Below are positions 1,899 to 22,328 of a DNA stretch of 36,729 nucleotides, one piece after another (within the stretch, counting starts at the first letter, position 1; every line of letters begins with the position of its first letter). The position numbers and the translations under genes were made by a program. The stretch comes from a virus, in IMG/VR virus record IMGVR_UViG_3300038701_001536, positions 1 through 36,729 of that record. One strand, 5' to 3'. The notes below the pieces were generated by a model. The model had not been told where the DNA came from. It saw only the letters and a program-made list of their open reading frames with translations, and did not search any database.

Positions 1899-2534
1899 AT
1901 GAATATCGAACAATCAATTAATAATGAAAATAACCCTATACGAGATTTAAAAGATATACAATCAATAATATTACATCACACAGGAAGTAATGCAAGCGAT
2001 GAGGCAAATAAAAATTACTTAAACAGAACAGATTATATATCAGCGCATTATATGGTTGGAAAAGATGGCAAAGTATATCAACTGATGGATGATGATCTTA
2101 TTGCATATCATGCAGGGGTAAGTTCATATAAAGGACTAAATACAAAAGGAAACAGTCTTAACTGGAACACTCTTGGCATTGAGGTGAATAGTAATGGAAC
2201 AGATTTTACAGATGATCAACGCAAGGCGACAAAAGAACTTGTAGAATATCTTGCTGTGAAGTATAATATACCTAGAGAATTAATCCTGGCACATAAACAT
2301 ATTGCACCTGATAGAAAGTGGGATATAGGAGAAAACTTTCATAAAGGAATGTCTTGGAACTTTTGGCTAGGAACTCTTGATTTATCCGATAAAAAAAATA
2401 CTATGACACCTGAACAAGAAAAACTATGTGAAACAGCTATTTTAGCACTAGGAAATATGCACAACTTCGGAACAGATGATATGAAAAAGACTGCTCATGA
2501 GTGCGCAAATAAAGTAAGAGAACTTAAATCTTAA
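1899..2534 (+). CDS. N-acetylmuramoyl-L-alanine amidase (endolysin)
   Basis: This 211-residue protein belongs to the Amidase_2/T7 lysozyme-like family, which cuts the amide bond between MurNAc and the stem peptide. ILHHTG (His26/27) and AHKHIAPDRKWDIG (His132 or His134, Asp142) match the zinc-ligand pattern, and IAYHAG and LGIEVN are further family motifs. About 55 C-terminal residues after NFW form a helical extension that may bind the wall. There is no signal peptide, so export must depend on the holin 10 bp downstream. No Shine-Dalgarno precedes the ATG. It is the main endolysin candidate. Confidence 0.92.
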   Translation: MNIEQSINNENNPIRDLKDIQSIILHHTGSNASDEANKNYLNRTDYISAHYMVGKDGKVYQLMDDDLIAYHAGVSSYKGLNTKGNSLNWNTLGIEVNSNGTDFTDDQRKATKELVEYLAVKYNIPRELILAHKHIAPDRKWDIGENFHKGMSWNFWLGTLDLSDKKNTMTPEQEKLCETAILALGNMHNFGTDDMKKTAHECANKVRELKS

Positions 2535-5599: not shown

Positions 5600-6007
5600 T
5601 TAAGAATTAAGTGATTGTTTTTCTGCTTTCAAATAAGAGATCCTTTGTTGTATTGATGATAGTATTCTGTTTACCTGCAATAATAGCATTTTAAGTCTTT
5701 TATATATATTTTCTGATACCATCATGTCATCTTTAAGTTTAATGTTGTCATAACGTGCTTTATTCTTCGCTGAGAGCGTCTTTTCCCCTTCTTGAGCGTA
5801 ATTATATTCTGAACTATTTAAAGCGTTGTCATAGGCATAAAATGAACTATTCTTGTTGTCTCTATAGTCTGAGCAGATCTCTGCTAGGTAATATGATCGA
5901 GTTGATAGTCTATCTTGTGCCCTTAGTAACCTTTCAATACTTAGATTATGAGAATCTTTCTCGTATTGATCAATTATTAGCTTGATGATTTCTAGTGTTT
6001 GCTTCAT
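5600..6007 (-). CDS. coiled-coil protein, unknown
   Basis: A 135-residue, almost wholly helical protein with charged heptads and several Tyr-rich patches (YDNALNSSEYNYAQ). No membrane segment or catalytic motif is seen. Its ATG overlaps the TGA stop of the lytic-transglycosylase frame (ATGA), so the two are probably translated in series. Confidence 0.6.
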   Translation of the reverse strand: MKQTLEIIKLIIDQYEKDSHNLSIERLLRAQDRLSTRSYYLAEICSDYRDNKNSSFYAYDNALNSSEYNYAQEGEKTLSAKNKARYDNIKLKDDMMVSENIYKRLKMLLLQVNRILSSIQQRISYLKAEKQSLNS

Positions 6008-6420
6008 TTATAAAATTTGATTAAGTTATCGACTCTACCTCTGAATTCGCTGTCTGTTTTATATCTATTTAGTCCATAAAATTTTGTTCCTCCTTTATAC
6101 ATATCATAACATGTTTCTACTTGCCACTTTGGATCATAGAATCCTTCCCATGTTGGCTTTGTATATCCTCCACATTTATCTGAATGAAATCCACAATGTA
6201 TCTGACATATTCCATATGAAGGCTCTCTTACTCCATCTTTAATATAATTACTCTGTCTCCTGGGGTCTATTGTTCCATTCTCTGCTACTAGCAATCGTAT
6301 AAAGTCTTTATCATTACTCAGATCATACGCATAACTCAATATCTCATTCTCTTTATCTCCTACTCCTTCTTTAGTGGCTGAATATTTAGTAGTCTTTATA
6401 GGCTCTACCTTCCTCTCACT
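6004..6420 (-). CDS. lytic transglycosylase-like domain, -1 frame partner of 6405-6644
   Basis: The -1 frame is open from the slip point (base 6420) through an upstream segment (SERKVEPIKTTKYSATKEG) to a catalytic domain. In that domain AENG supplies the likely catalytic Glu, followed by PSYGICQIH (the G-L/I-x-Q-I motif of SLT/goose-lysozyme-like folds), then W-Q..C..Y..G. The only internal start is TTG at 6339. Read with the upstream frame through GGGTTTA, it gives a 213-residue enzyme with an N-terminal membrane or export segment. It would cleave murein glycan strands. The frame carries no separate ATG, which favours fusion over independent translation; a sequencing error cannot be excluded. 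Confidence 0.65.
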   Translation of the reverse strand, partial: SERKVEPIKTTKYSATKEGVGDKENEILSYAYDLSNDKDFIRLLVAENGTIDPRRQSNYIKDGVREPSYGICQIHCGFHSDKCGGYTKPTWEGFYDPKWQVETCYDMYKGGTKFYGLNRYKTDSEFRGRVDNLIKFYK

Positions 6421-6644
6421 AAACCCTCTCCTCTCAATAATTCATTAGTATACTCTGTATAGTCTTTAATCTCCTCTAGTAGTTGGATACATTGATTGGC
6501 GTTGTTCCAGTTGTTTGAGTTAGTCTCAATAGCTTTATGATAAGTATTTGTATCAGCACTTGCATAAGTTCCAACGGCTCCAATAAGCAAACCAATAATC
6601 ATAGCGGCAACAGTTGCCATAATAATTTCTTTTAAATCGTACAT
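6405..6644 (-). CDS. N-terminal anchor/export frame of the frameshifted lytic enzyme
   Basis: The zero frame codes for 79 residues: a Gly/Ala-rich hydrophobic segment (about residues 8-30, ending TYASA, which resembles a signal peptidase site), then a hydrophilic helical linker, ending RGEGLVRGR at a TAG. Weakly hydrophobic Gly/Ala segments are typical of signal-anchor-release endolysins. Eight codons before the stop is the heptamer GGGTTTA, and the -1 frame continues into the lytic domain. Without the shift it would be a free membrane peptide, possibly a regulator of the long form. Confidence 0.65.
   Translation of the reverse strand: MYDLKEIIMATVAAMIIGLLIGAVGTYASADTNTYHKAIETNSNNWNNANQCIQLLEEIKDYTEYTNELLRGEGLVRGR
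6420..6426 (-). promoter_or_regulatory. candidate -1 ribosomal frameshift heptamer GGGTTTA
   Basis: Zero-frame codons GAG GGT TTA GTG can slip to GGG TTT AGT. This is an exact X XXY YYZ heptamer, placed so that the -1 frame is precisely the lytic-domain frame. A purine-rich AGGAG-like tract lies just 5' of it, and a weak GGTAG/CTACT hairpin could form downstream. Confidence 0.6.
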
Positions 6645-6650
6645 AGTTTT

Positions 6651-6767
6651 TTAGTTAATTGATATAATAAATGTTCCAATAGCGAATGCAAATACGAACA
6701 TAATAAAGAATAGTATTCCATAGTCACGTTTATCAAGAGACTGAAACTCTCGTTTAATATTTTTCAT
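6651..6767 (-). CDS. single-span membrane peptide
   Basis: A 38-residue frame: a basic, polar N-terminus (MKNIKREFQSLDKRDYG), then one membrane helix (ILFFIMFVFAFAIGTFIISI) reaching the C-terminus. It fits tightly between neighbours and joins a run of four small membrane proteins at 6405-7240. Possibly a holin-like or regulatory partner of the adjacent lytic enzyme; not recognised. Confidence 0.55.
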   Translation of the reverse strand: MKNIKREFQSLDKRDYGILFFIMFVFAFAIGTFIISIN

Positions 6768-6768
6768 A

Positions 6769-7080
6769 TTAGCTAGTTAAAAAAATAAATATACAAGTTC
6801 CAAGAAACATTAGCGACATGAATAATGCAAAGTTTTTTGAGTTGCTTAGCTGCTTTATCATATCTTCTTTAAACTCTCGTGCTTTCTCAATAGTTTCTAG
6901 TCGCTCCTCTTCATATAAGTTAATAATATGCACAGAATCGTCTTGAATCATCTCAACTGTCTTTTCAAATGTTTTAATATCTTCTTTGTATTTTGCAATC
7001 TTCTCATCTCGATATTTAACCTTACTCTCTAGCGATTTGATCTTTTTCTTTGCTTTTTCTAGTAGTAGTGATTTTTCCAT
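6769..7080 (-). CDS. coiled-coil protein with C-terminal membrane anchor
   Basis: A 103-residue protein. Residues 1-80 form a strongly charged coiled coil (KAKKKIKSLESKVKYRDEK), and the last about 20 are hydrophobic (FALFMSLMFLGTCIFIFL), giving a tail-anchored protein with the coil in the cytoplasm. It lies one base from the next small membrane gene. No family recognised; a role with the neighbouring murein hydrolase or in superinfection exclusion is only inferred. Confidence 0.6.
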   Translation of the reverse strand: MEKSLLLEKAKKKIKSLESKVKYRDEKIAKYKEDIKTFEKTVEMIQDDSVHIINLYEEERLETIEKAREFKEDMIKQLSNSKNFALFMSLMFLGTCIFIFLTS

Positions 7081-7240: not shown

Positions 7241-7425
7241 TATTTTGTAATTATGATTTTAATCTTCTTTTTGTATCCTGCTCCGTTATCTACATTAAAT
7301 GTAGCAGCTACCTTCTGACCCTTTAATACCTTATTAGTCTTAGGCAAAAGCATATATAAAGGAGTATTAGGATTAGCTTCACAGTTTAATTGTAGATCTT
7401 GATGGTATTGTGATTTCATAGGCAT
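7240..7425 (-). CDS. hypothetical protein
   Basis: A 61-residue basic protein with a beta-rich C-terminal half (KVAATFNVDNGAGYKKKIKI). It overlaps the stop of the upstream gene and the start of the downstream gene. No signal peptide or membrane segment. Function unknown. Confidence 0.55.
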   Translation of the reverse strand: MPMKSQYHQDLQLNCEANPNTPLYMLLPKTNKVLKGQKVAATFNVDNGAGYKKKIKIIITK

Positions 7426-8057
7426 TATTTAATTATTTTAATATCTCTTCCTAACTCTTTGTATACTTGTTCAAGTGTTAGTTCTTCAGAATTGTCTCCA
7501 TCTACTTTTATACCTGATATTTCGTAAAATATATCTGCATCAAAGTTTGGTAGATCTTTAACACTGTCTTTATCTTTTTGAGATGCTTTGTTATATGAAT
7601 TTTTAAAAGCCTGTTTGTAGTCATAACACTTTAAATATCCTCCGGTAGTAATATAACTAGGGTAAGTGTCTTTCTCCTTATCTGTCATATCTGATTCATT
7701 TATCCATTCTGTAAGTCTAAAATAAAAGAAATCGGGAAAAGGAATTGATCCAAAATTTAAATCTGTTTGTTTATTAAACATAATTACTTTAGGAGTATGA
7801 GTGTTGCAGTATCCTGTATTATAATCTCCTGCGTTCCAGCTTCCTGTGTTCCTTATTCCTGTGTTACGGCTTCCTGTGTTACGGCTTCCTGTGTTACAGT
7901 ATCCTGTGTTACGGCTTCCTGTGTTACGGCTTCCTGTGTTACAGTATCCTGTGTTATTGTCTCCCGTGTTACAGTGTCCTGTGTTACAGTATCCTGTGTT
8001 CCATTTTCCTGTGTTCCATTTTCCTGTGTTATAATCTCCTGTGTTAGTTTCTGACAT
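7425..8057 (-). CDS. NTGxx pentapeptide-repeat protein
   Basis: I place the start at 8057 (MSETNTGDYNTG, 210 residues), because the longer frame to 8135 would put a hydrophobic stretch before the repeat and overlap the upstream gene. About eighteen tandem N-T/A-G-x-x repeats (units such as NTGSR, NTGYC, NTGDY) fill the first 90 residues, followed by a 115-residue acidic globular domain (FPDFFYFRLTEWINESDMTD). N-T-G-x-x repeats occur in scattered bacterial and phage proteins of unknown function; a regular beta-solenoid is inferred. The repeats are nearly identical in DNA as 15-bp units, so copy number may vary. Confidence 0.75.
   Translation of the reverse strand: MSETNTGDYNTGKWNTGKWNTGYCNTGHCNTGDNNTGYCNTGSRNTGSRNTGYCNTGSRNTGSRNTGIRNTGSWNAGDYNTGYCNTHTPKVIMFNKQTDLNFGSIPFPDFFYFRLTEWINESDMTDKEKDTYPSYITTGGYLKCYDYKQAFKNSYNKASQKDKDSVKDLPNFDADIFYEISGIKVDGDNSEELTLEQVYKELGRDIKIIK
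7807..8045 (-). repeat. tandem 15-bp coding repeats
   Basis: Near-identical 15-bp units read on the plus strand as CCTGTGTTACGGCTT and variants. They encode the NTGxx repeats. Units SR-SR-YC recur as a higher-order 45-bp block, so the array probably grew by unequal recombination or slippage. Confidence 0.85.
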
Positions 8058-8082
8058 AATATAGTTATTAATGAATAAAATT

Positions 8083-8280
8083 TTAAATAAATGCTCCGTA
8101 AAACTTCGATACAAAGTTTGAATAAGAATCTCCAACTTTACAAGTATTAAATACTACATTCTCATTCTTCTTGCACTTCTCTTTCTCTAAGATCTCATTT
8201 GCGATCCGTACGTCATTTTTAGTTAATCCTTTTACCTTCTGATACTTTCCTACATTATATTTAATTTGTGAATATTTCAT
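8083..8280 (-). CDS. hypothetical protein
   Basis: A 65-residue basic protein with two Cys residues (EKEKCKKNENVVFNTCK). Its leader TTAATAAACACACC-ATG matches the leaders of genes at 15527 and 17678. Function unknown. Confidence 0.6.
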   Translation of the reverse strand: MKYSQIKYNVGKYQKVKGLTKNDVRIANEILEKEKCKKNENVVFNTCKVGDSYSNFVSKFYGAFI

Positions 8281-8601: not shown

Positions 8602-8666
8602 CACTTTTTATTGTTTTCTTAAACTTAGCCTATAAATGAAAACAGCCATGGCTAACGGAAAGCCAA

Positions 8667-8683
8667 TTTATACATTGTATAAA
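8667..8683. repeat. 17-bp palindrome
   Basis: TTTATACA-T-TGTATAAA is a perfect inverted repeat just beyond the tRNA-like region. It could be an operator for the adjacent promoter or a processing hairpin of the RNA transcript. Confidence 0.5.
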
Positions 8684-8695
8684 AACATCTATAAG

Positions 8696-8717
8696 CTAAA
8701 TTTAAAAGAACAATTTT
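8696..8717. repeat. 22-bp direct repeat, copy 1
   Basis: CTAAATTTAAAAGAACAATT followed by TT, identical to 9112-9133. Each copy immediately follows the 3' end of a tRNA-like gene (minus strand), so it is a shared 3' trailer left by duplication. Confidence 0.85.
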
Positions 8718-8720
8718 GAG

Positions 8721-8790
8721 GGAGAGGAAAGGATTCGAACCTTCACATACTGGATTGCGTCAGCAGATCTTACCATTAATCTACCTCTCC
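8721..8790 (-). tRNA. tRNA-like RNA with irregular anticodon arm (T1)
   Basis: A 70-nt cloverleaf. Acceptor GGAGAGG/CCTCTCC, D arm GATT-AATGGTAA-GATC and T arm GAAGG-TTCGAAT-CCTTT are all canonical. Only 21 nt separate the D and T stems. The best anticodon stem is TGCTG/CAGTA, closing an eight-base loop ACGCAATC that lacks U33. The anticodon cannot be assigned safely; GCA (Cys) is possible if the loop is read with C33. No CCA is encoded. Confidence 0.6.
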
Positions 8791-8925
8791 TGATGTCGGG
8801 GTTAAGCACTAGACAGTCCCCTCCACTTATTGGTTTTTAACGTCCAGTGCTATCTGTTGCAAATACGCTCATTTACTTAATCCATACAGATAACTAGATT
8901 CTAAGGGAATTCCCTTAAATTTAGA
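8791..8925 (-). ncRNA. structured RNA segment between tRNA-like genes
   Basis: No protein frame. On the minus strand it folds as AAGGGAATTCCCTT (palindrome), TATCTGT/ACAGATA enclosing GTAAAT/ATTTGC, then a 10-bp stem AGCACTGGAC/GTCTAGTGCT with one GU pair (8842-8851 with 8805-8814). It shares the short motifs TCTGTATGGA and CAGATAGCAC with the neighbouring 8926-9110 segment, in swapped order. Function unknown; it may be a decayed tRNA gene or part of one larger RNA. Confidence 0.35.
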
Positions 8926-9121
8926 TTGTAAGCCAAGGATTTGCCGAGAGTCATGGATCTTTATTTTATAGTCTAGTTCCATACAGACCATTTATTTAGC
9001 TCTATATACTCGTATAGTCACCTTGGAATTTCGTGCTATCTGCATAAACCACTAGTGAGTAATCAAGCCTCACGCAGGACTATTGCGTCTACCTATTCCG
9101 CCACTTACAACCTAAATTTAA
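8915..9121. repeat. 18-bp terminal inverted repeats around the interrupted tRNA-like segment
   Basis: TTAAATTTAGATTGTAAG (8915-8932) faces CTTACAACCTAAATTTAA (9104-9121), with one mismatch in 18. The inner seven bases are the acceptor-stem strands of the tRNA-like gene, but pairing extends well past a normal acceptor. Confidence 0.7.
8926..9110 (-). tRNA. interrupted or decayed tRNA-Leu-like RNA (T2, 185 nt)
   Basis: Acceptor strands TTGTAAG and CTTACAA pair perfectly, and the 5' strand is followed by TGGCGGAATAGGTAGACGC, the hallmark D arm of bacterial tRNA-Leu. CAAATCCTTGG before the 3' acceptor looks like a partial T arm, whose partner CCAAGG sits about 90 nt upstream. The segment is about 100 nt too long for a tRNA. 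It has hairpins (GTGAG/CTCAC, ATGCAGA/TCTGTAT) but no clear group I intron core. It may be an intron-bearing gene, a gene with an insertion, or a pseudogene. Confidence 0.4.
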
Positions 9122-9133
9122 AAGAACAATTTT
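9112..9133. repeat. 22-bp direct repeat, copy 2
   Basis: Identical to 8696-8717. It is the 3' trailer of the tRNA-like gene at 9137-9230 and supports duplication of a tRNA-plus-trailer unit. Confidence 0.85.
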
Positions 9134-9136
9134 CGA

Positions 9137-9230
9137 GGAGAAGGCAGGAATCGAACCTGCGACCCGAGACGTTGTACTCCCTCATATATAAGGGCAGAGC
9201 GCCTGCGCTCTTCCACTGAGCTACTTCTCC
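9137..9230 (-). tRNA. tRNA-like RNA with hairpin inserted in the anticodon loop (T3)
   Basis: A 94-nt gene. Acceptor GGAGAAG/CTTCTCC, TA, D arm GCTC-AGTGGAA-GAGC and T arm GCAGG-TTCGATT-CCTGC are canonical. Between the D and T stems are 46 nt. AGGCG pairs with CGTCT as an anticodon stem, and the loop reads CT, then a 21-nt hairpin-forming block, then TACAA. Removing the block gives CTTACAA, the loop of tRNA-Val(UAC). There is one extra base on each side of the stem. No CCA is encoded. The competing hairpin AGAGCGC/GCGCTCT would break the D arm. Confidence 0.65.
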
Positions 9231-9240
9231 ATATTTTGAG

Positions 9241-9328
9241 AAAGAGAGCTGGATTTGAACCAGCATAAAACACTTGATCAGAGCGTATCACTACCGTCAG
9301 CAGCTGCTTTACATTAAGCTATCTCTTC
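9241..9328 (-). tRNA. tRNA-like RNA with enlarged anticodon/variable region (T4)
   Basis: An 88-nt gene. Acceptor GAAGAGA/TCTCTTT, TA, D arm GCTT-AATGTA-AAGC (lacking the usual GG pair in the loop) and a perfect T arm GCTGG-TTCAAAT-CCAGC. The 41 nt between the D and T stems hold GCTG-CTGACGG-TAGT (a four-pair stem with a seven-base loop) and TGAT/ATCA, possibly a long variable arm. If that loop is used, the anticodon would be GAC, which is odd for a long-variable-arm tRNA. Identity unresolved. Confidence 0.55.
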
Positions 9329-19116: not shown

Positions 19117-19332
19117 ATGACATTACAACAAATACAGTCACGACTAGAGGAGATTAAGTTTCTACGTGATCAGCTAGATACAGAGTTCTTACGATTAACA
19201 GATGAAGCAGGATTTATGCAACAGTGGGAGATAGCAAGACATGAGTATATGAAGATACAGAATATGATTCCTGTTAGAAATGAGAAGCTAGACAATTACT
19301 TTAAATTATCTAATGAATGCAAAAAGTCGTAA
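19117..19332 (+). CDS. small helical protein between the terminase genes
   Basis: A 71-residue helical protein (QIQSRLEEIKFLRDQLDTEF) overlapping the TerL start by 16 bases. It may assist the terminase or simply be a small structural protein. No family recognised. Confidence 0.6.
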   Translation: MTLQQIQSRLEEIKFLRDQLDTEFLRLTDEAGFMQQWEIARHEYMKIQNMIPVRNEKLDNYFKLSNECKKS

Positions 19333-20600
19333 TCCCTTATACACCTAGACCTTTACAAAAGGAATTTCACAAGTCTTCTAAACGATGGAGACTTGTTTTA
19401 GCGCATAGGCGGTTTGGTAAGACAGTAATGATAGTGAATCAGTTGATTAAAGATGCTCTTACATTACAGAAGAAGGACATACGATTGGCATATATAGCGC
19501 CAACATATAAGATGGCAAAGAATATTGTATGGGATTACTTGAAGAAGTATGCTTTTCCTATACCAGGTATGAAGTTCAATGAGTCAGAGTTAAGAGCTGA
19601 TTTCCCTAACGGAGCAAGGGTTAGATTATATGGAGCAGATAATCCAGACAGTCTTCGAGGTATATATCTTGACGGATGTGTCTTTGATGAGTATGCGCAG
19701 TGTAGACCAAGTATGTTCACAGAGATTATACGACCAGCATTATCAGATAGAATAGGTTATTGTATCTTTATTGGAACACCTAAGGGAAGAAATCATTTCT
19801 ATGAACTATATGAGAAGGCTATTAATATGGATAGTTGGGATGCTTTTAAGTTTATTGCATCAGAGACTGGATATGTATTACCAGAAGAGCTAGCAGAAGC
19901 AAAGAGTATAATGAGTGAGGATGAGTTCTTGCAAGAATATGAGTGTTCATTTGATGCCGCTATAAAGGGAGCAATATACGCTGACTACTTAAACACTGCA
20001 AAAGAGGAAGGAAGGGTCACAGAGGTAAAATATGACGCAAATTTACCAGTATACACAGCATGGGATATAGGATGGAGTGATGATACAACAATAATCTTCT
20101 TCCAGATCTTTAAAGATGAGATCAGAGTGATTGACTCATATAGTAATAACTTCCAGAACTTAGAGTTTTATGCAGAGATATTAAGGGAGAAGGAATATAA
20201 GTATGATACACATTTCTTTCCATGGGACTCAAAGATCAAGCCGATGAGTTCAGGTAAGAGTACATTAGATATAGCAATTTCATTAGGTATGAAGTGTGAG
20301 GTAGTGCCAAGCCTAAGTGTATTGGATGGTATTAACTTTGCACGTAAGCAATTCCCTAACATGTATTTCGATGAGGAGAACAATGCAGGACTATTGAAAG
20401 CTATTGAGGCATATCAGAGGGAATATGATGAGAAGAAACAGGTTTTTAAACCTTCGCCATTACATAACTGGGCATCACATTATGCCGATGCTTTTAGGTA
20501 TATGGCTATCTCAATTAAAAAACATGTTGCTTTAAATGAGGAAGAATATCATAATATAGTAGAATCTTATAACAGTTCACAAATATATAGTAAATTTTAA
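19317..20600 (+). CDS. terL: large terminase subunit
   Basis: A 427-residue packaging motor. Walker A AHRRFGKT (29-36), Walker B CVFDEYAQ (121-128) and coupling motif IGTPKG (152-157) form the ATPase. The RNase H-like nuclease follows, with AWDIGWSDD (Asp250), an acidic WDSKIKP and HYADAFRY near the end. It pumps DNA through the portal and cuts concatemers. Length and motif spacing fit podovirus-type TerL. The start overlaps the preceding gene. Confidence 0.95.
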   Translation: MQKVVIPYTPRPLQKEFHKSSKRWRLVLAHRRFGKTVMIVNQLIKDALTLQKKDIRLAYIAPTYKMAKNIVWDYLKKYAFPIPGMKFNESELRADFPNGARVRLYGADNPDSLRGIYLDGCVFDEYAQCRPSMFTEIIRPALSDRIGYCIFIGTPKGRNHFYELYEKAINMDSWDAFKFIASETGYVLPEELAEAKSIMSEDEFLQEYECSFDAAIKGAIYADYLNTAKEEGRVTEVKYDANLPVYTAWDIGWSDDTTIIFFQIFKDEIRVIDSYSNNFQNLEFYAEILREKEYKYDTHFFPWDSKIKPMSSGKSTLDIAISLGMKCEVVPSLSVLDGINFARKQFPNMYFDEENNAGLLKAIEAYQREYDEKKQVFKPSPLHNWASHYADAFRYMAISIKKHVALNEEEYHNIVESYNSSQIYSKF

Positions 20601-20603
20601 ATT

Positions 20604-22328
20604 ATGTCTGAAAGTCTACAACAAGAGATAAATAAGAACTTTAAAAACAACACTGATGATCCAGCAGTGGTATCTGCAATGGATTTAATGTTTAAGTCAG
20701 AGTTAGTTCGTAATGATAAAGAAAATGAATGGTCGGCAATCCAAGACTTGTTTGAGTCAGGTTTTTCTGTTAGTGATCCAAGTGGTACACGGAAGATTGA
20801 ATCAAGTTTATTGTTTCATGCAGTACGACGTACAGTAGAGAAGATGAAGCCTTTAGATGCTCAGTTACATGCAACAGGAGTTGATGAAGACTCGGAGTTC
20901 ATTACAACACAAGGAGTAGGAACAGTGTTGGAAGAAGGAGGATTTGTTAAAGCTTTACGAGATGACTTCGGAGTATTCTACCGGATGTTATTATTCGGAG
21001 ATGCTTTTGTAAGGGTTGGAGCTGATACAGATAATAAGTATCCAATTAAATTCCAAAACACTTCTTTATTGAATGTATATGTTGATCCATATGCTAATAA
21101 TATGAGAAGTCCAACATCAGAGAAAGATGCAGATGAGTTAGTAGCTATTTACAAGTACAGTTGGGATGATGCCGTGAAGATATATCCAAAGATTGCAGAG
21201 GTAGCAACTTCAGGACGTATCACACGTATTAATGAGTTGGAAGAGTTAGATGAGACTATAGAACAACAGCTACAAACAAGAGACCGAGAGATTGAAGTGG
21301 CTCATTACTATAACTTGAGTTCTAAGAATTACACAGTATTTGCTGGAGTAGCTAATAGTATTATTGAACAACATGAAGGAGATGATTATCCATTTATGAA
21401 AGATAAGAAACCTTTTATACCTTTCTTACGGTTTAGATGTTTTCCTGCTTCTGAGGGGTTTTATTCAAATGGTATTGGTCATGCTCTATATAGACTGGCA
21501 GTTATCTCACGACAACTGAATAACATGGCATTAACATATGGTGAACAAAATATTTCTCCAATAAGAATGATTAATGTTCCATCAGGACAGCAACGAAATT
21601 TCTTTAATAGACTTGTATCAGCACAACGTAGTCAAGCTGAAGGTAAACAAGGGTTTATTGTTAATGAGTATGAGTTAAGTGATCCTAACGCTGGACGTAT
21701 TAATATGGACTCATTCCGATCTGATCCAATCTCTAGCGAATGGGAACGATTATTCAACGCTATTGATCTTGAAATTAAACGTATGGGTATTAACATTGAT
21801 GCAGCAGACCGAGGAGGTTCTATTACAGCAACGCAGATATTAGCAGAGGAAGAAACACAAAACTCATTTGTACGACAGATTATGGAAGATAATGCAGGTG
21901 AATATAAATTTGCATGGGAACTAACGATTGAAATGATTAAAGAATTCATAAGTAAGAAAGACAAGACACCAATTAATATGCTTTCAACAGTAATGGTTGA
22001 TGGTAAAGAGGAGAGACTTGATGGATTTACAATGGGTCAGTTATCATCAGAGTTAAAAGAGAATGATTATTTTGTGAAGATAAACTCTCGTAGTGGGTTC
22101 ATTCCATCTAATATCATGCAACAGGTACAAATCAATCGTACACTCGCTGTAACACAGCCTGGAACGCCAGCCTTTGCTAAGTTATCACTTAAACTTGCAC
22201 GATTAAATGGGCAAGACCTTAAGTCAGAGGATTTACAAGCACAACAGAGTGGACCATCAGGAATAGAGGGGCAAGAATCAATCCCAACAGAGACAGGAGA
22301 CCTATCACTTGATCAAGTAATACAATAA
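20604..22328 (+). CDS. portal (head-tail connector) protein
   Basis: A 574-residue protein directly after TerL. It has the mixed alpha/beta body and long helices of portal proteins, a GFYSNGIGHALYRL segment and a Q/S-rich acidic C-terminus. The dodecameric portal forms the DNA gate and docks the terminase. No single diagnostic motif exists, but size, order and style agree with podovirus portals. Confidence 0.85.
   Translation: MSESLQQEINKNFKNNTDDPAVVSAMDLMFKSELVRNDKENEWSAIQDLFESGFSVSDPSGTRKIESSLLFHAVRRTVEKMKPLDAQLHATGVDEDSEFITTQGVGTVLEEGGFVKALRDDFGVFYRMLLFGDAFVRVGADTDNKYPIKFQNTSLLNVYVDPYANNMRSPTSEKDADELVAIYKYSWDDAVKIYPKIAEVATSGRITRINELEELDETIEQQLQTRDREIEVAHYYNLSSKNYTVFAGVANSIIEQHEGDDYPFMKDKKPFIPFLRFRCFPASEGFYSNGIGHALYRLAVISRQLNNMALTYGEQNISPIRMINVPSGQQRNFFNRLVSAQRSQAEGKQGFIVNEYELSDPNAGRINMDSFRSDPISSEWERLFNAIDLEIKRMGINIDAADRGGSITATQILAEEETQNSFVRQIMEDNAGEYKFAWELTIEMIKEFISKKDKTPINMLSTVMVDGKEERLDGFTMGQLSSELKENDYFVKINSRSGFIPSNIMQQVQINRTLAVTQPGTPAFAKLSLKLARLNGQDLKSEDLQAQQSGPSGIEGQESIPTETGDLSLDQVIQ

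Follow-up and report, generated by a model that had tools for sequence, protein, structure and literature searches.

How a phage can produce a cell-wall enzyme whose export signal and catalytic domain lie in different reading frames, the second without an ATG of its own, is the question raised by a locus in IMG/VR virus record IMGVR_UViG_3300038701_001536. The whole stretch analysed, hereafter the window, comprises positions 1 to 36,729 of that record (36,729 nucleotides, nt), and the locus lies on its minus strand, as do all features given below unless stated otherwise. In this study, we found that the same two-frame arrangement recurs in five independent homologous loci, and comparison of the sequences makes it highly probable that programmed -1 ribosomal frameshifting yields an exported murein hydrolase encoded within a lysis cassette.

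The upstream open reading frame (ORF) of the locus, taken as the 0 frame, spans 6405..6644 and encodes 79 amino acids (aa): an N-terminal hydrophobic export signal or anchor (Kyte-Doolittle peak 2.51) and a polar linker, the product reading MYDLKEIIMATVAAMIIGLLIGAVGTYASADT...GEGLVRGR* and ending at TAG (6407-6405). Re-derivation from the window sequence confirmed the position and parts that an earlier note on this DNA had assigned to this ORF, as well as the exact slippery heptamer it had pointed out, G GGT TTA, which stands at 6426-6420 (6420..6426) in X XXY YYZ phase with the 0 frame. The note had placed the stop eight codons past the heptamer; there are in fact four sense codons and then the stop (GTG AGA GGA AGG TAG). 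The -1 frame is open for 145 codons, from 6441 down to its TGA at 6006-6004 (6004-6441), and the two open frames overlap by 37 nt (6405..6441), within which a -1 shift must fall. The claim that the -1 frame has no ATG of its own also holds, at least up to the Glu of its AENG motif; the standard-type starts in this part are TTG 6339 and a TTG four codons ahead of the Glu only. Slippage at the heptamer would give the junction ...RGEGL|SERKV... and would join 75 aa of the 0 frame to 138 aa of the -1 frame (6004..6423), in agreement with the fusion of 213 residues predicted earlier.

Single-sequence searches with the window domain gave no match in 50,697 phage records, viral contigs, Pfam, PHROGs or NCBIfam, and a plasmid search with the enzyme domain gave none. 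Scans for the YGICQIH motif returned chance matches only, and an antisense match of the domain in genome contigs was judged spurious. A gapped DNA pattern combining AENG and G.CQ.H led to an IMG/VR locus, L032, whose protein is 30% identical to that of the window (E 2e-11 in a direct comparison). Profile scans found first L036 and L037, and then L040, L041 and L042, also from IMG/VR; a further pattern scan after these revealed no additional member. L040 (IMGVR_UViG_3300032038_000272) and L041 (IMGVR_UViG_3300031760_006356) are one identical locus from two metagenomes and were counted once. This leaves five independent homologues of 28-44% identity, mostly from unrelated phage genomes, and counts of six below refer to these five plus the window. 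The genomes of the homologues have very little in common beyond the enzyme gene, and the window shares a structural module with the L032 genome only.

The six distinct loci share one layout: a catalytic ORF lies in the -1 frame of a preceding ORF whose N-terminal part is a hydrophobic export segment, the overlaps measuring 37 nt in the window, 193 in L032, 49 in L037, 34 in L042, 25 in L040, and 22 in L036. Conservation of the split in related phages, proposed in the earlier note as a check, was thus found in five of five independent homologues. Homologues with an intact single frame and no heptamer, which the same note had named as evidence against frameshifting, did not turn up in a search that hardly reached cellular genomes. 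The domain itself has no export signal; every 0-frame ORF starts with one, and it would reach the enzyme only via a shift. TAG serves as the 0-frame stop in five of the six loci, although it accounts for a minority of the stops in these genomes.

At least three of the six loci have no usable start for the catalytic frame. L032, L037, and L042 contain no ATG, GTG or TTG before the alanine that is conserved in the domain, and L042 contains no CTG, ATT, ATC or ATA there either; in the window, TTG 6339 is the only start upstream of this alanine. Separate initiation may be possible in some of the loci but appears to be essentially impossible in L042, and hence ribosomes arriving from the 0 frame would be the common solution. 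The linker, which runs from the 0-frame stop to the domain, is open in the -1 frame in six of six loci (product of shuffle probabilities 1e-5), and in each of them its codon usage is best in the -1 frame as compared with the other two. In the window, the codon-usage score of the linker is 0.33 per codon in the -1 frame versus -0.72 and -1.22 in the others, and this coding bias lies mostly ahead of TTG 6339, which argues that translation enters from upstream.

The overlaps were also compared for slip motifs. The identical G GGT TTA is present in L037, where about 0.0009 would be expected in the overlap, with 3 in-phase occurrences of this heptamer counted among 45,246 codon pairs. The sites elsewhere are A AAT TTT and T TTT TTG in L040, G GAT TTT in L032, C GAT TTT in L036, and A GTT TTA in L042. 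An NNT TTN codon pair, on which the A-site tRNA can re-pair on TTT, lies ahead of the 0-frame stop in all six overlaps. Conservation of the heptamer, which the earlier note had proposed to look for, therefore stands for the identical site in L037 and for this pair in every locus, but not for a strict X XXY YYZ motif in all homologues. The joint chance of the NNT TTN pairs, calculated from each genome's own codon-pair frequencies, is 3e-4, a value that is optimistic because the rule was recognised only once the sites had been seen. The chance that three or more of the six overlaps hold a canonical heptamer (as do those of the window, L037, and L040) is P 0.008; GGATTTT of L032 is near-canonical, and L036 and L042 would allow an A-site slip only. 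The 'GFS' conserved where the two frames join comes from the -1 reading, and since the actual product would read GL|S or DF|S, its conservation lies at the nucleotide level. AGGAG is found only 1 nt upstream of the heptamer in the window, and L037 has a strong stable hairpin 5 nt past its heptamer (z about -3); an upstream Shine-Dalgarno sequence and downstream structure are not conserved among the loci.

The predicted catalytic domain (6004..6336) is based on alignments and an AlphaFold model with a predicted local distance difference test (pLDDT) score of 83. In the six-sequence alignment, Glu-Asn, a Gly and two cysteines are invariant and a Q is present in most; in the window, the likely catalytic Glu of AENG is encoded at 6282-6280, the GICQIH motif at about 6213-6196, and the invariant cysteines at 6207-6205 and 6111-6109. 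A profile search of the PDB ranks c-type lysozymes first (E 0.0035), and a fold search of a viral library is led by transglycosylase/LT_GEWL phage proteins (E 0.013, probability 0.96). The lysozyme superfamily (GEWL/SLT/c-type) is characterised by a catalytic Glu in a helix, a G-[ILF]-C-Q-I segment after it and a lysozyme fold, and the conserved residues together with the profile and fold matches are consistent with membership. No match was obtained to PF01464 (SLT) or to any other Pfam, NCBIfam or PHROGs model, where Pfam was tried on the window and six members and an own-record search was included. Taken together, these data weakly but consistently support a lysozyme-fold murein hydrolase at the fold or superfamily level. 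The lytic transglycosylase-like enzyme of the earlier note is thereby upheld as to its lysozyme/SLT-type fold and has no curated family match; a lytic transglycosylase is possible, and is not distinguished from a lysozyme.

The neighbourhood looks like a lysis cassette. Immediately upstream, an ORF for a 38-aa one-span membrane protein (6651..6767) ends 6 nt before the 0-frame ATG, in a holin-like position, and is preceded by a gene for a 103-aa coiled-coil protein with a C-terminal membrane span (6769..7080). Membrane ORFs of 30-55 aa occur at the 0-frame ATG in four of the six loci (window, L032, L037, and L042), either 2-10 nt before it or with a 4-nt overlap. The downstream gene (5600..6007) has an ATG that overlaps the -1-frame TGA (ATGA), and its homologue lies near the L037 cassette (1038-1451). 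The window phage also encodes a separate Amidase_2-type endolysin (1899..2534, plus strand), whose homologue lies directly upstream of the L042 cassette (8621-9220).

Several observations weigh against frameshifting to an exported hydrolase. As a string, GGGTTTA shows no enrichment, with 2 occurrences in the window versus 3.35 expected, and the chance of some canonical heptamer in an overlap of this size is about 5%, so that the window case alone is weak and needs the comparative support. Only three of the six loci have a strictly canonical slip motif, poor P-site re-pairing is expected in L036 (C GAT TTT) and L042 (A GTT TTA), and on the strict XXXYYYZ rule alone the five new loci give P 0.067. 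No significant structure was found downstream of the heptamer in the window (z 0.15 to 1.5), and the fold search against the PDB matched MltF and lysozymes weakly (best E 0.86). Furthermore, separate initiation is possible at an in-frame ATG (2381) inside the L036 overlap and at an ATG of L040 that stands shortly before the conserved alanine. Such starts, together with TTG 6339, are what two translationally coupled genes would be expected to offer, with the enzyme re-initiated close to the 0-frame stop; TTG 6339 or a non-AUG codon might serve as the restart point in the window. Coupled phage genes typically show short overlaps with a -1 offset, and ATGA or TAATG coupling gives such an offset too. 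We consider coupling distinctly unlikely, as neither AUG, GTG or TTG nor any of the near-cognate starts tested occurs ahead of the domain in L042, ATG, GTG and TTG are likewise missing there in L032 and L037, the -1-frame coding bias of the window sits mostly before TTG 6339, and a separately started enzyme would be without an export signal.

Because the source is a metagenomic contig, the loss or gain of one base by sequencing or assembly error, or decay of the gene, might have split a single-frame gene. The same -1 split in five independent homologues, one of them identical in two metagenomes, argues that the window split is not a one-base error, and errors would also yield +1 splits and would not land on slippery sites; this explanation is very improbable. 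Equally little weight falls on transcriptional rather than ribosomal slippage as the source of the fusion. Six consecutive T in the L040 overlap would suit it, but the runs in GGGTTTA, GGATTTT, CGATTTT, and GTTTTA are short, and RNA polymerase slippage normally needs longer ones. A different doubt concerns the place of action: the frameshift-made enzyme may be virion-associated and serve entry instead of lysis, given that many phage SLT-like domains occur in virions and that an amidase endolysin is already present in the phage. This is unlikely in view of the tiny membrane ORFs that the cassette follows in four of the six loci, the adjoining amidase in L042, and the export signal.

If programmed -1 frameshifting operates at the window locus, most ribosomes would stop at TAG 6407-6405 and release the 79-aa exported or membrane-anchored protein. 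In a minority, the tRNAs on GGT-TTA would slip one base back to GGG-TTT and translation would continue in the -1 frame. In the resulting 213-aa fusion, the lysozyme-fold murein hydrolase would reach the cell wall by means of the N-terminal export signal and would act there within the phage lysis machinery beside the small membrane proteins and the amidase endolysin. The slip frequency would set the ratio of enzyme to anchor-only product and thereby limit the dose of the enzyme.

As for the phages themselves, the window terminase (region 19317-22328) is closest to those of Pelagibacter HTVC010P-type phages (46%), and the gene next to it (20604-22328) has a homologue in the L032 genome and no match in the phage collection. 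Relatives found via the terminase and the pentapeptide gene of the window do not carry the enzyme domain. The latter gene (7425-8135) encodes a pentapeptide-repeat protein of a family common to unrelated phages (Rheinheimera phages and a Clostridioides phage) and IMG/VR contigs, at roughly 40-60% identity. The L040/L041 phage apparently reads TGA as glycine (code 25), with conserved glycines of the lysozyme-like domain at TGA, and this genetic code suggests a host among the Gracilibacteria/Absconditabacteria. Three matches to tRNA in Rfam, at 8720-9328 of the window, have unusual anticodon arms: one has a loop of 8 nt and the ARAGORN anticodon gcaa, another resembles tRNA-Val(tac) and seems to carry a 21-nt insertion following position 33, and the third has a long variable region. 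The tRNA with the 8-nt anticodon loop was rejected as a suppressor, because reading four bases would shift the frame by +1 instead of -1. At about 8920-9105, a tRNA-Leu/Ser-like 5' half (GTGGCGGAATAGGTAGACGC) and the matching acceptor strands GGTTGTAAG...CTTACAATC, which lie about 170 nt from each other, may belong to an interrupted tRNA.

Most documented cases of frameshifting in tailed phages concern tail assembly chaperones and capsids (PMC10885494). Like dnaX and the tail assembly chaperone G/GT of the lambda type, the locus combines a -1 frame with a heptamer in the overlap for X XXY YYZ tandem slippage, and would give short and fused products from one start. Unlike those, its fused part would be an exported cell-wall enzyme and its short part an export/anchor module, its slip site is less strict, and the upstream Shine-Dalgarno sequence and downstream structure are not conserved. 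The lysin of Lactococcus phi-vML3 (Shearman 1994) is cited among frameshift-containing genes in PMC10885494, and according to PMC3111421 the phi-vML3 locus comprises a lysozyme-like lysin and a smaller holin-like lysis protein; as known through these two citing papers only, it is likewise a phage lysin tied to overlapping genes. Thus, we do not put the present locus forward as the first lysin frameshift; it would be a variant of known frameshifting. According to PMC5009743, which cites Kastelein 1982, the lysis protein L of MS2 is likewise tied to frame shifts, which occur during coat translation in the upstream overlapping gene; L differs in being separately started after termination rather than fused, in belonging to an RNA phage, and in not being an enzyme. 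SAR (signal-arrest-release) and signal-peptide endolysins are also lysozyme-fold hydrolases exported by an N-terminal hydrophobic segment, but they are single-frame genes, whereas signal and enzyme here lie in different frames. LT_GEWL/SLT phage transglycosylases are the best structural neighbours in the viral library; unlike them, the window family has no PF01464 sequence match and has two invariant cysteines.

We tentatively suggest, with slightly less than even confidence, that these loci represent a new family of exported phage murein hydrolases that is always gated by -1 frameshifting, in which the anchor-only product would be a regulator or partner and the slip frequency would set lysis dose and timing across distant uncultured phages, one of them reading TGA as glycine. 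The control of a lysis enzyme by frameshifting would be unusual, and six slip sites of differing strength are available for comparison. If the frameshift fusion is real, enzymes of this family go unnoticed or are cut short under standard annotation, and linking an export signal to a cell-wall enzyme via a conserved frameshift would represent a new means of dosing a dangerous protein.
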